Shown here: positions 8,471 to 13,890 of the stretch, piece after piece | How positions within the stretch are numbered: position 1 is the first letter of the stretch | Layout: each line of letters opens with the position of its first letter | Assembly: GCA_947074105.1 (NCBI GenBank) | Contig: CAMTON010000026.1 | Span: forward strand, 1-43,509 | DNA length: 43,509 nt | Source of the DNA: an uncultured Bacteroidales bacterium | GTDB taxonomy: Bacteria; Bacteroidota; Bacteroidia; Bacteroidales; JAUNSR01 | Direction of reading: 5' to 3' | Notes under the pieces: generated by a model | Told to the model about the DNA's origin: nothing | Seen by the model: only the letters and a program-made list of their open reading frames with translations | Database searches by the model: none | Position numbers and translations under genes: made by a program

Positions 8471-11400
8471 TTATTTTAAATGATTTGTATACTCCTTAAC
8501 TTCATTTAAAATATTTAGAGCCTTTTCCACTGTATATACTTTCTCTCTAAGAAGATATCTCTTATTCTTATTCTCCTTTATCTGAGTTTCCTTAGGATGA
8601 TTCTGTAAATAGGAGAGAAGAGCTCCGAATTCTTCCGACTGAAAATACTGTTCATTATTACCGGAAAGGAAATACAGATATAGTTTATCGTTTTTTAGCA
8701 TCACTTTCTCAATACCAAGACTTTTAGCCATGATACGAAGATTGACAATCCTGATAAGCTCCATACTTTCGTGAGGTATGGTTCCGAAGCGATCTTTTAT
8801 TTTCAGAATGAATTTTTCAATATCTGCTTCCTTGTCAATTGAGTCAAGCTCTTTATATAAAGAAATTCTCTCAGCGGAAGAAGGTATATATTCATTCGGG
8901 AAAAGAAGTTCCATATCAGATTCGACAATACACTCGCTAAGCCATTTGCTGTTGTCCCTTAGTTCATTGCCTTCGACATAAAGATCTGAGAACTCATCAT
9001 TTTTAAGTTCCTCTACAGCTTCCTTAAGTATTTTCTGATATGTTTCATAGCCAAGATCTGCAATAAAACCGCTTTGTTCACCTCCTAGAAGGTTGCCCGC
9101 ACCTCTTATATCAAGATCCTGCATTGCGATATGGATTCCGCTTCCAAGTTCAGAAAAGTTTTCTATCGCCTGAAGTCTGCGTCTTGACTCTGTGCTCAAT
9201 GAATGAAGCGGAGGAGCAAGCAGATAGCAGAATGCCTTTTTATTGCTTCTGCCAACACGTCCCCTTAACTGATGCAATTCGCTCAGTCCGAAATTCTGAG
9301 CATTATTGACAATTATGGTATTTGCATTAGGTATATCGATACCTGATTCAATAATGGTCGTGGACAACAGTACATCATATTCGTGATTGCTGAAGTCGAT
9401 AATATTCTTTTCCAGAGTCTGAGGATCCATTTGTCCGTGACCTATTACGACACGTGCGTCAGGTACAAGCTTTATTATCTGATCTCTTAATTCACCAAGA
9501 TTCTGTACGCGGTTATTTATAAAGAAGACCTGTCCGTTACGGCTCATCTCAAAATTGATAGCTTCTTTTATTATCTCATCGTCAAACCGGTGGATTTCAG
9601 TCTGAATCGGAAATCTGTTCGGTGGCGGAGTAGATATAACCGAAAGGTCGCGCGCTCCCATAAGGGAGAACTGTAATGTTCTCGGTATAGGAGTTGCCGT
9701 CATTGTCAGTGTATCGACGTTAGTTTTTATCTGTTTAAGTTTCTCTTTTACCGCAACACCGAATTTCTGTTCTTCATCGATTATCAGAAGACCGAGATCT
9801 TTAAAATGTATATCCTTTCCGATCAGCTTATGAGTACCGATAATTATGTCGGGTTTTCCTTCAGCAAGTGACTGCGTCAGTTTTTTTACATCCGCCGCTT
9901 TTCTCGCTCTTGTCAGATAGTCAATTTCAACAGGGAAATCTTTAAGCCTTTCTTTAAATGTCTTATAATGCTGAAAAGCCAATACAGTAGTCGGTACAAG
10001 TACCGCAACTTGTTTTCCGTCGCACACAGCTTTAAATGCAGCACGAATAGCAATTTCCGTTTTCCCGAATCCTACATCGCCACAAATAAGTCGATCCATA
10101 GGTTTCGGATTTTCCATATCTTTTTTTACTTCCACTGTAGAAGTATACTGGTCCGGAGTATCTTCATAAATAAACGAGGCTTCCAATTCCTGCTGAAGAA
10201 ATGAGTCCGGAGAAAATGAATGTCCGCGTTCGTCTTTTCTTTTTGCGTAAAGACGGATAAGATCGCGGGCAATGTCTTTCATCTTACTCTTTGTCTTATC
10301 TTTCATTTTCTCCCATGCTCCTGAACCAAGCTTATTGATCTTAGGAGCATGTCCATCTTTCGCTCTGTATTTTGCCAGTTTATGAAGAGAATGTATATTG
10401 ACAAAAAGGATATCGTCGTTAAGATAGATAAGCTTGATCACTTCCTGTGTCTTTCCGTTAACAGGCATTCTTACAAGCCCTCCGAATTTTGCTACTCCGT
10501 GATCTACATGAACTATATAATCGCCAATCTCAAACTGATTAAGTTCCTTAAGTGAAATAGCAAGTTTGCCGCTTCTTGCTTTATCACTTTTAAGATTGTA
10601 TTTATGGAAACGGTCGAATATCTGATGATCCGTAAAATAGCAGCATGCCATATCCTCGTCTACAAACCCCTCATGCAGAGTTTTTATTACTGGAGTAAAA
10701 CTGATATCGTCATTACGGTCTTCAAAAATTGCCTTGATCCTGTCTATCTGCTTTTCATTGTCACTAAGGATGTATATTTTGTAACCTTTGCTTATATAAT
10801 CTTTAAATGATTGAGCCACAAGATCGAAATTCTTGTGGAACATAGGTTGTAATGATGTATGAAATTCTATTGTGGAGGGTGTGGAAGAAAATGATTTGGG
10901 CCCGAATTCTATTCTTTTAAAAGAAAATAGTTCTCGTGCAAATTTATCACCGTCCACAAGCTTTGTCTTTATAGTAAGGTCGCCTTCTTCAGATATAAGA
11001 AGCTGTTCGGATATATCTTCATTAACAATCGCTTTCACTCTTTCGCAGATCCATGCCATATCTTTGAATCCAAGCAAAGTGTCGGGTGATATAAATTCCA
11101 GAAGCGATACCCCTGTAGCTTCATTTGACTGAAGATTAGGAATAATGAATATTTCGTCAAGTTTTTCTTTGGAAAGCTGCGAGTCGATTTCAAATATCCT
11201 TATGCTGTCTACTTCATCTCCAAAGAAGTCGATACGGAAAGGCAGGTCATTGGAAAATGAATAAACATCTATGATTGATCCTCTCTGTGCATATTGTCCC
11301 GGCTCATATACATAGTCTACACGTTGAAATCCGAATTCAAATAATACTTCGGATACGAATATAGGATTGATTTTCTCACCTCGGCTTATTCTGAGAGTCT

Positions 11401-11830
11401 TGTCGGAAAGAGTCTTCTGTGATACTACTTTTTCGGCCAGCGCATCGGGATAGGTGACTATCATTACAGGTTGTTGCTGTTTCAGCCTGTTTAGGACCTC
11501 TGTTCTCAGGATTTCCGAAGCACCGTCTATCTGACCGTATTTAATCGCTCTCTTATAAGCTGAAGGGAAAAAAAGAATATTCTCAGTTCCGGAAATCTGA
11601 GTCAGGTCATGGAAGAAATATCCGGCCTCTTCAAGGTCATTAAGAACGAAAATATACTGATTCTTATTTTTATTTACTTTTTCATCTATAAGAGGTGCAA
11701 GAAATGCAGCTGCCGCCGATCCTTTAAGTCCTGAAAGAAAGACCGACTGTTCGTTATTGTTAATCAGCTTCTCAAGTGCCGCAAATCGTGGCTTCGAAAT
11801 AATATAGGAGGTTAAATCTTTACTCTGCAT
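8471..11830 (-). CDS. mfd: transcription-repair coupling factor Mfd
   Basis: ATP-dependent translocase that pushes stalled RNA polymerase off DNA at lesions and recruits UvrA for nucleotide excision repair. At 1119 residues it has family length. The N-terminal UvrB-like module is followed by the RNA-polymerase-interacting domain (HVDHGVAKFGGL), then the helicase motor with Walker A GDVGFGKTE (about 585), DEEQ box (about 686), motif III TATPIPRTL and motif VI QLRGRVGRS, and the C-terminal TRCF domain. The ATG at 11830 gives the conserved start. It is first in the probable mfd-kinase-kinase operon and is divergent from htrA across the long spacer with the 22-nt array. Confidence 0.98.
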   Translation of the reverse strand: MQSKDLTSYIISKPRFAALEKLINNNEQSVFLSGLKGSAAAAFLAPLIDEKVNKNKNQYIFVLNDLEEAGYFFHDLTQISGTENILFFPSAYKRAIKYGQIDGASEILRTEVLNRLKQQQPVMIVTYPDALAEKVVSQKTLSDKTLRISRGEKINPIFVSEVLFEFGFQRVDYVYEPGQYAQRGSIIDVYSFSNDLPFRIDFFGDEVDSIRIFEIDSQLSKEKLDEIFIIPNLQSNEATGVSLLEFISPDTLLGFKDMAWICERVKAIVNEDISEQLLISEEGDLTIKTKLVDGDKFARELFSFKRIEFGPKSFSSTPSTIEFHTSLQPMFHKNFDLVAQSFKDYISKGYKIYILSDNEKQIDRIKAIFEDRNDDISFTPVIKTLHEGFVDEDMACCYFTDHQIFDRFHKYNLKSDKARSGKLAISLKELNQFEIGDYIVHVDHGVAKFGGLVRMPVNGKTQEVIKLIYLNDDILFVNIHSLHKLAKYRAKDGHAPKINKLGSGAWEKMKDKTKSKMKDIARDLIRLYAKRKDERGHSFSPDSFLQQELEASFIYEDTPDQYTSTVEVKKDMENPKPMDRLICGDVGFGKTEIAIRAAFKAVCDGKQVAVLVPTTVLAFQHYKTFKERLKDFPVEIDYLTRARKAADVKKLTQSLAEGKPDIIIGTHKLIGKDIHFKDLGLLIIDEEQKFGVAVKEKLKQIKTNVDTLTMTATPIPRTLQFSLMGARDLSVISTPPPNRFPIQTEIHRFDDEIIKEAINFEMSRNGQVFFINNRVQNLGELRDQIIKLVPDARVVIGHGQMDPQTLEKNIIDFSNHEYDVLLSTTIIESGIDIPNANTIIVNNAQNFGLSELHQLRGRVGRSNKKAFCYLLAPPLHSLSTESRRRLQAIENFSELGSGIHIAMQDLDIRGAGNLLGGEQSGFIADLGYETYQKILKEAVEELKNDEFSDLYVEGNELRDNSKWLSECIVESDMELLFPNEYIPSSAERISLYKELDSIDKEADIEKFILKIKDRFGTIPHESMELIRIVNLRIMAKSLGIEKVMLKNDKLYLYFLSGNNEQYFQSEEFGALLSYLQNHPKETQIKENKNKRYLLREKVYTVEKALNILNEVKEYTNHLK

Positions 11831-11863: not shown

Positions 11864-11947
11864 TCAGTTTTTATTATTAACGATTCAGTTCTTAGTTTAA
11901 TGAATTTAAAAAACTCATTTTTTCTATAACAGGATTATTCTGCTTTT

Positions 11948-12048
11948 TATGACAAGACGTACACTTGTCATATTGCAACTGTACACTTGCAATATTGTCA
12001 TCGGACGATGGTAATATAACAACTGTACACTTTTTTATCACAGTTGTT
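11948..12048. repeat. array of four 22-nt-spaced palindromic units (GTACACTT core)
   Basis: Units begin near 11949, 11971, 11993 and 12015. The core GTACAC recurs at 11959, 11981 and 12025 (spacing 22 and 44); the third unit has diverged (GGACGA at 12003). Each unit is an inverted repeat: 9-bp arms at 11948-11956/11964-11972, 9-bp arms at 11970-11978/11987-11995, a 10-bp stem with two G-U pairs at 11994-12003/12006-12015, and 9-bp arms at 12018-12026/12040-12048. The arm sequences differ between units yet stay complementary. The spacing of about two helical turns suits binding of dimeric proteins on one DNA face; a series of RNA hairpins is the alternative. Function unknown. Confidence 0.7.
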
Positions 12049-12387: not shown

Positions 12388-13890
12388 ATGAAAAATTACG
12401 GTAAACAATTAATATATTTTGGTGCTGTAGCCTTAGTGAGTGCAGGTGTAAGTGCCGGTACATTTAAATTTCTTGAAAGACGCGGAGGGGAGATAATCTA
12501 CAATTCCGATTCTACTCAGATATTTGCAAAACCGGTAGGTTATACTCTGACAAATCATACCCAGGCATTTGAAACAGACTTCACAGACGCTGCAGAGCGA
12601 ACTGTAAATGCAGTAGTGCATATCAAATCAACAGTGAAATCCAGTGATGCCGTTTCATCGGGAGACCCTTTCTTTGACTTGTTTTTTGGTAACAGACAGC
12701 GTAATCAGACTAAACCACAGGAAAAAGTAGGTTATGGTTCTGGGGTTATTATTTCGTCTGACGGATATATCGTTACAAATAATCACGTTATCGACAGCTC
12801 TGATGATATAGAGATTATTATGAATAATAATAAGAAGTATAAAGCGGTATTAATAGGTACGGATCCGACAACAGATATTGCGCTTCTTAAGGTTGAGGCC
12901 GAAGGGTTGCCGGTTATAAATTTCGGAGATTCTGATGCCCTTAAAGTAGGAGAATGGGTTCTTGCTGTCGGTAATCCGTTCATGCTGAACTCGACTGTTA
13001 CAGCCGGAATTGTCAGTGCTAAAGCCAGGAGTATAGGTATTATAAGCGGTCAGAGAAATCATATGGGAATAGAATCCTTTATACAGACTGATGCAGCTGT
13101 TAATCCCGGAAATAGTGGAGGAGCTCTTGTGAATCTTAAAGGAGACCTTGTGGGAATAAATACGGCAATATTCTCACAGACAGGTAATTATGCTGGTTAT
13201 TCATTTGCCGTTCCTTCTAGTATTGTAAGCAAAGTAGTTACTGACCTTAAACAATTTGGTACTGTACAACGTGCCGTTCTTGGTATTGAGATTGCTGAAA
13301 TGACAGATGAACTTTCAAAAGAGAAGAATCTTAATCTTATTGAAGGAATTTATGTTCACGGTGTAAAAGATAACGGAGCAGCAGCGCTGGCAGGAATAAA
13401 AGACGGTGATATCATTACGGCTATAAATGGTATTAAGGTTAAGACAATCGCTCAGCTTCAGGAACAGGTAAGCCGTTACAGACCGGGCGATAAGATTCAG
13501 GTGACATATGAAAGAAATGGTAACTCAAAATCTGTAGCTGTCGTACTTAAAAACACTATAGGTAATACTGAAGTCGTTAAACAGCAGGGTATCGAGAGTC
13601 TTGGTGCTTCCTTTAAAGAACCGAGCAGTGCCGATAAAAGTAAACTTGCTATAAGATACGGTGTGCAGGTCGAATCGGTTTCTGACGGTAAATTCAAGCA
13701 GGCAGGAGTAAAAGAGGGCTTTATTATTATGAAGATTAATGATATTAGGGTAAATTCGCCAAAAGATGTCGATAAAATATATAAGGATCTTACTTCAAGT
13801 AAAAGAGCAGACAGGGAACCGGTGATGTTTATAGCGGGAATTTATCCTAACGGAAAGACTGCTTACTATGCGATTGACGTTTCAAAATAG
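12388..13890 (+). CDS. htrA: HtrA/DegP-family periplasmic serine protease
   Basis: Trypsin-like protease and chaperone of the envelope that degrades misfolded exported proteins. Residues 8-24 form an uncleaved-anchor or signal segment. The protease domain (about 65-260) carries the complete triad: His133 in TNNHVID, Asp163 in TTDIALLKV and Ser243 in NPGNSGGAL. Two PDZ domains follow (about 280-385, with GDIITAINGIKV, and about 400-495, with GFIIMKINDIRV). The length of 500 residues matches two-PDZ DegP proteins. It lies upstream of rpoD on the same strand, separated by about 300 nt with a hairpin, and is divergent from mfd. It is probably stress-regulated, but no sigma-E-like site was recognised. 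Confidence 0.95.
   Translation: MKNYGKQLIYFGAVALVSAGVSAGTFKFLERRGGEIIYNSDSTQIFAKPVGYTLTNHTQAFETDFTDAAERTVNAVVHIKSTVKSSDAVSSGDPFFDLFFGNRQRNQTKPQEKVGYGSGVIISSDGYIVTNNHVIDSSDDIEIIMNNNKKYKAVLIGTDPTTDIALLKVEAEGLPVINFGDSDALKVGEWVLAVGNPFMLNSTVTAGIVSAKARSIGIISGQRNHMGIESFIQTDAAVNPGNSGGALVNLKGDLVGINTAIFSQTGNYAGYSFAVPSSIVSKVVTDLKQFGTVQRAVLGIEIAEMTDELSKEKNLNLIEGIYVHGVKDNGAAALAGIKDGDIITAINGIKVKTIAQLQEQVSRYRPGDKIQVTYERNGNSKSVAVVLKNTIGNTEVVKQQGIESLGASFKEPSSADKSKLAIRYGVQVESVSDGKFKQAGVKEGFIIMKINDIRVNSPKDVDKIYKDLTSSKRADREPVMFIAGIYPNGKTAYYAIDVSK

Follow-up and report, generated by a model that had tools for sequence, protein, structure and literature searches.

Plasmid iterons are short sites, repeated in tandem about every 22 bp, that are bound cooperatively on one face of the DNA, and each replicon carries one such array, adjoining its rep gene. 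Landmark sites on chromosomes include those of Noc (about 70 sites with a 14-bp palindrome) and SlmA (24–52 sites, GTGAGTACTCAC), and matS (23 sites) (PMC4726725, PMC3116907). Archaeal SegB has a palindromic motif with 39 enrichment peaks (46 sites) dispersed along the chromosome (PMC12284271). REP and BIME sequences with RAYT (GTAG and CGTC REPs) are short intergenic palindromic repeats that occur in tens to hundreds of copies, belong to families specific to a species, and form multi-unit clusters (PMC3733652, PMC12306157). In some Bacteroidetes, TAACTGA direct repeats form short intergenic arrays (PMC4679880).

In this study, we analyzed a 43,509-nt stretch of an uncultured Bacteroidales genome (contig CAMTON010000026.1 of assembly GCA_947074105.1; hereafter the window), in which four palindromic sites at 22-nt steps lie between mfd and htrA. 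This array is one of approximately 80 in the genome. The sites of Noc, SlmA, matS, and SegB would be its nearest functional analogs in number and scale. Like Noc, SlmA, and matS sites, the arrays are palindromic, are not tied to gene function, and amount to many sequence-specific sites spread over the chromosome; the SlmA site is also GTAC-centered. However, the sites of these three systems are single, often genic, and share a motif among relatives, whereas the arrays have four sites per locus, are solely intergenic, and use a motif that depends on the species, the geometry being conserved in relatives instead. The SegB motif is 13 bp long, mostly intragenic, and conserved across genera, and the arrays differ in all three respects.

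The arrays resemble REP/BIME elements in being intergenic, palindromic, multi-unit, species-specific, and present in many copies (~80). They differ in their fixed four units at 22 nt, even spacing, near-absence of decayed copies, and a motif that changes while the geometry stays. Column counts over 77 copies revealed no GTAG or CGTC tag at a stem end, and a search for RAYT (Y1_Tnp, PF01797) was negative in all five genomes of the genus (drafts, 71–96% complete) and positive in five control genomes, so that a RAYT/REP association was rejected. As in MITEs and REPINs, the elements are non-coding, roughly 100 bp long, dispersed, palindromic at the ends in some copies, and missing at orthologous sites, most of the orthologous spacers in the nearest relative being array-free. 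Unlike MITEs and REPINs, they have no target-site duplication, no parent transposon was found among the genes beside the arrays, and their copies are 67% alike with near-intact fixed positions. The ~80 arrays per chromosome contrast with the one per replicon of plasmid iterons. The TAACTGA repeats are a single heptamer in direct orientation, variable in number, without dyads and near start codons, unlike the 4 × 22 arrays. A CRISPR array was excluded, as the units are 67% alike, just four in number, and present at ~80 loci with no recurrent neighbor gene. No description of four-fold 22-nt arrays was found in a literature search, and the opinion of the first-pass annotation of the window that no named element matches holds within the searches made.

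Structure of the array between mfd and htrA

The spacer lies between mfd (8471–11830, minus strand) and a Do-family htrA (12388–13890, plus strand), which is followed by the primary sigma factor gene. The array consists of four 8-nt cores at steps of exactly 22 nt, joined by 14-nt linkers with ATAT at their center (Table 1). The first-pass annotation correctly placed GTACAC at 11959, 11981, and 12025, and the 44-nt gap that it left is occupied by a variant core, the third of the four. All of the inverted repeats it described were located, including TATGACAAG/CTTGTCATA at 11948–11956/11964–11972, ATATTGCAACTGT/ACACTTGCAATAT, and the fourth one, AACAACTGT/ACAGTTGTT, at 12018–12026/12040–12048 across the right end. 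This last repeat extends beyond the array; it is private to the window copy and outside the family pattern.

Taken alone, the pattern in this single spacer is modestly significant (P about 0.002–0.01). Dinucleotide shuffling of the spacer (3,000 replicates) gave P = 0.0017 for three occurrences of one hexamer on a 22-nt grid and P = 0.01 for a blind score combining palindromes and period at 22 nt. Among the periods from 15 to 30, 22 nt had the highest score and none equaled it.

Table 1 Features of the array in the window
Feature	Position	Strand	Remark
Left boundary T-tract	11944..11948	.	T 77–84% at −11 to −9, 77 flank-oriented copies
Core 1 ACGTACAC	11957..11964	.	Sequence
Linker 1 TTGTCATATTGCAA	11965..11978	.	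Same letters in another copy, contig C51
Core 2 CTGTACAC	11979..11986	.	Sequence
Linker 2 TTGCAATATTGTCA	11987..12000	.	Sequence
Core 3, variant TCGGACGA, GGAC center at 12003	12001..12008	.	Fixed G and C retained at 22-nt step
Linker 3 TGGTAATATAACAA	12009..12022	.	Sequence
Core 4 CTGTACAC	12023..12030	.	Sequence
Right boundary T6 (end type B)	12031..12036	.	T 57–96% at +75 to +80, 77 copies
Complete array, 4 cores at 22-nt steps	11957..12030	.	1 of ~80 genome-wide

A family of arrays in one genome

Approximately 80 intergenic arrays were found in the 3.86-Mb genome, with concordant results from BLAST, a sequence-only model, and a fixed-base pattern. The pattern, GNNCNNT....ATAT....ANN extended over three cores, matched 164 times genome-wide with up to two mismatches and 171 times with up to three, versus 0 and 2 matches, respectively, in the reversed control. 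The arrays are built from four GNNC-centered sites 22 nt apart, with TKNNNATATNNNMA linkers between them and T/A tracts at the bounds. Nearly all have four cores; an array on contig C12 has a fifth, and one on C1 has three. The mfd–htrA setting, which the first-pass annotation had pointed out, is incidental because ~80 other spacers hold the element and the nearest relative has none there.

In a gap-free alignment of 77 copies, the G, C, T, A-T-T of ATAT, and A of each 22-nt unit are near-invariant, with 10 departures in 1,771 at these fixed positions, which were picked after inspection, versus 1,400 in 3,927 (36%) elsewhere. Counted over 18 fixed positions, 123 matches have no mismatch, 35 have one, one has two, and three have three. 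This distribution is a cliff with no visible tail of decayed copies, and both the cliff and the genome counts are independent of the choice of columns. Pairwise identity among the aligned copies averages 67% and reaches at most 0.89, and no near-identical recent copies were seen. The variable positions of the 77 copies draw on limited sets of letters, and the half-linkers, each six letters long, on a small lexicon (TGACAA, TTGTCA, TTGCAA, TTGCGA, TGTTAA, TTTTCA, and others). Half-linker words serve all six half-positions in the 77 arrays and follow internal rules, such as position 9 fixing position 12.

Boundaries, neighboring genes, and spacing

A T-tract lies ~8–11 nt ahead of the first core and an A-tract at a like distance past the last one. 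The ends are of two types, GGTTGCA-like and GYCTTTTTT, which combine freely. None of the 80 arrays is located inside a long ORF. The neighboring genes are in tandem at 43 arrays, converging at 18, and diverging at 14, and five arrays lie at a contig edge; many arrays are closer to the 3′ end of an adjacent gene. In tandem spacers, end type and linker polarity are both independent of transcription, and the T6 end is downstream as frequently as upstream. A terminator function was rejected on these grounds. Direct k-mers in the flanks were no commoner than in permuted flanks, which gives no indication of target-site duplication. The neighbors are unrelated housekeeping genes, and no gene family recurs among them, transposase-like or cognate-factor candidates included; a recurring neighbor gene as the cognate factor was therefore rejected.

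On contigs with more than one array, all 15 gaps between arrays are at least 9.5 kb (P about 0.001). In the nearest relative, G001, none of the nine gaps over all families is below 20.3 kb, and the coefficient of variation is 0.30 versus 0.83 expected; P was 0.00015 and 0.00075 in different versions of the test (minimum gap or coefficient of variation, conditional or unconditional). The tests were conceived post hoc from the positions, with G001 as an independent replicate, and the positions come from draft assemblies and a blind scan of incomplete sensitivity. The even spacing in G001 spans three unrelated families, which suggests that those families do the same job.

Symmetry and pairing

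The symmetry of the arrays is carried by fixed positions at 11/22-nt steps. Over the whole population of copies, no excess pairing was found along any hairpin axis or antidiagonal, and a single consensus hairpin was rejected for this reason. In pooled units, the complementarity of the arms falls below that of shuffled ones (cores, z −2.3; linkers, z −3.9) because the linkers are directional, with one polarity per array. Polarity is mostly constant within an array, linkers 1 and 3 having the same polarity in 24 cases and the opposite in 7. The compensating arm changes reported in the first-pass annotation are thus present within the window copy and are not a rule across copies, where the covariation test was null or negative.

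Part of the structural signal was retained in the variant cores. A variant core is paired with its own reverse complement in 11 arrays versus 3.0 expected (0 of 5,000 shuffles), for example CTGTCCGC/GCGGACAG and CCGAACGG/CCGTTCGG, and direct pairs of variant cores are not in excess (3 versus 2.8 expected). The inverted pairs could result from selection on a hairpin or from template-switch copying between palindrome arms. Outer palindrome positions covary in family A of G001 (z 4.4) and do not in G002, another genome of the genus (z 0.7).

Arrays in related genomes

A model of the motif was run against 94 Bacteroidales genomes from other genera and gave only weak, unrelated matches (E 1e-4 to 1e-2), none of them convincing. 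Its one match in the same genus, in G001 (E 0.0017), proved on inspection to be a different array. The motif pattern had zero matches in the same-genus genomes G001, G003, and G004, and its two matches in G002 are chance matches in an unrelated GCCCGTTGCCGATATCGGCAACGGGC sequence. At C54:220 (L114) and C344:2936 (L116) of G002, GCCCGTTGCCGATATCGGCAACGGGC is followed by GTTGC, with a perfect palindrome at the ~22-nt scale. Three motif patterns had no match in viral_contigs, and a phage origin was rejected accordingly.

G001 is the nearest relative (the MAG that yielded L063; HtrA 89%), and its mfd–htrA spacer contains no array. The lack of conservation that the first-pass annotation named as a refutation thus applies to this spacer, but relatives do have the architecture, spelled in other letters. 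We used a blind scan that scores palindromes at a fixed step with no motif supplied, and arrays in the present genome, G001, and G002 were essentially confined to step 22. In the 1.2 Mb of G001 scanned, ~21 arrays of several unrelated families were found, with the motifs ACACCTTGCAAGGTGT (family A), CCTAWANGCNTWTAGG (family B), and GTTATCAATTGATAAC (family C). Family B occupies at least 11 loci in the whole genome, and it had no significant match in any of the other four; all of its BLAST-found loci within the scanned part had already turned up in the blind scan. In G002, at least 14 arrays are present, each made of four TGNCAYGNNCRTGNCA palindromes 22 nt apart. No arrays were found by blind scanning of 117 kb of G003 and 289 kb of G004, which is weak evidence of absence.

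The spacers of G001 that are orthologous to those holding arrays here are mostly empty (17/21; 13/15 for adjacent pairs), and some of the empty ones are shorter in G001. Nevertheless, arrays are over-represented in them compared with other spacers (4/21 versus 15/366, P = 0.015), also when only long spacers are considered (4/15 versus 15/201, P = 0.03).

Several further features were observed in these genomes. In G002, several arrays, such as those at L133, L134, L138, and L141, are flanked by inverted repeats unique to each copy, for example AAAGGGCTAAAAAGTTT / AAACTTTTTAGCCCTTT, as though a private hairpin enclosed the array in its loop. Beyond the 1.2-Mb stretch, G001 has a lone GGGC-cored 4 × 22 array (C24:6298-6381; L109 1500-1584) upstream of genes for a response regulator with a Fis-type HTH and a histidine kinase. 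Two copies of a motif, AGTTTGGGCATAT.CC.ATAAAT, are found near it (L109 ~1600-1750). In a genome of another family, a 22-nt tandem repeat of 10 copies has ATAT and CCATGG/CCACGG centers 11 nt apart (L095 1421-1648); it was set aside as a single-locus minisatellite, perhaps unrelated.

Discussion

That the arrays lie between genes in random orientation, with a fixed geometry, an even spacing, and next to no decay, argues for sites that are kept by selection and act as DNA. We propose, with a probability of roughly 0.4, that the host maintains these arrays as DNA sites to which a dimeric, rapidly evolving protein binds cooperatively and that they serve as chromosome landmarks. Four dimers of a putative sequence-specific protein would sit side by side, one per dyad, binding cooperatively. 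The 22-bp step corresponds to two helical turns, which would place the four sites on one face, and four dyads at this distance suit side-by-side dimers. From such a binding array we infer a landmark along the chromosome for organization, segregation, or division control, as for Noc, SlmA, MatP, and SegB sites. The site letters would evolve rapidly together with the binding protein while the array geometry is retained. The 4 × 22 architecture with unrelated motifs in G001 and G002 and the over-representation in orthologous G001 spacers are consistent with these landing arrays. Against them count that the cognate protein was not found and no gene family repeats beside the arrays, that the motif differs between species of one genus and G001 alone has at least three, that most orthologous spacers are empty, and that the spacing tests are post hoc on draft genomes. 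The inverted-complementary variant cores hint at a hairpin step, which simple protein binding does not explain.

The main rival is a non-autonomous REP/MITE-like mobile element, in which a putative transposase reads the four-hairpin geometry rather than the letters, families drift and multiply within each species, and copies are kept apart by target immunity. We consider this possible but somewhat less likely. It accounts well for the species-specific families and the empty, sometimes shorter, orthologous spacers, and it agrees with the dispersal between genes in random orientation, the unique inverted flanks in G002, the excess of inverted-complementary cores, and the covariation in family A of G001. 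It does not account for the missing decayed copies, and recent copies above an identity of 0.89 are likewise lacking. Y1_Tnp/RAYT was not found in any of the five draft genomes of the genus, target-site duplication was not found, and no copy adjoins a recurrent transposase-like gene family. Moreover, immunity would have to span families of unrelated letters unless the geometry itself is recognized. If the arrays are mobile, they would be a REP-like family without its usual transposase, with recognition of structure and an immunity range of ~10–20 kb.

The first-pass annotation had offered RNA hairpins or one-face dimer sites, and the tests favor sites at the DNA level. A string of RNA hairpins selected for base pairing, as an mRNA 3′ stabilizer, terminator, or small RNA, is unlikely because the orientation is blind to transcription and the arms in general do not covary across copies. 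The palindromes can fold as RNA, the compensating variant cores are in excess, right ends are frequently CTTTTTT, and arrays are commonly nearer to a 3′ end of a neighbor; yet the T6 end has no preferred side in tandem gene pairs, the family shows no positive covariation either end-to-end or within palindromes, divergent spacers house 14 of the 75 arrays with two assigned neighbors, and no Rfam match came near any gathering score. Cooperative dimer arrays are typical of operators and all copies are intergenic, as expected if one transcription factor controlled a large regulon of ~80 promoters, but this is very improbable: 18 of the spacers are convergent and thus offer no promoter, the arrays differ widely in their orientation and in their distance to gene starts, the neighbors are unrelated housekeeping genes, and a regulon gives no reason to expect regular spacing on the kilobase scale. 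Dyads arising by chance in an AT-rich spacer would be compatible with the blind score of the lone spacer (P of about 0.01); the 164 genome-wide matches versus none in the reversed control refute them, and we give this explanation practically no weight.

Returning to landing arrays, we suggest, more tentatively, that they may form a previously undescribed landmark system in a Bacteroidales genus, consisting of quasi-regular intergenic arrays of exactly four dyads at 22 bp with conserved geometry. The recognition sequence would be rewritten genome-wide between species, with families coexisting in one genome yet keeping a mutual distance. If so, the system would parallel, in bacteria, the rapidly evolving sequences of centromeres or recombination hotspots with a stable architecture. 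Landing arrays would also constitute a chromosome-wide site system ruled by geometry rather than sequence, and a natural instance of dozens of sites in a genome changing letters together, so that the co-evolution of a DNA-binding protein with its sites across the genome could be tested directly in close relatives. Motif-based surveys would miss this class under either the landmark or the mobile reading because each species needs an architecture scan. In the present genome, contigs C42, C74, C103, C109, and C144 terminate inside or beside an array, which suggests that short-read assembly struggles with arrays.
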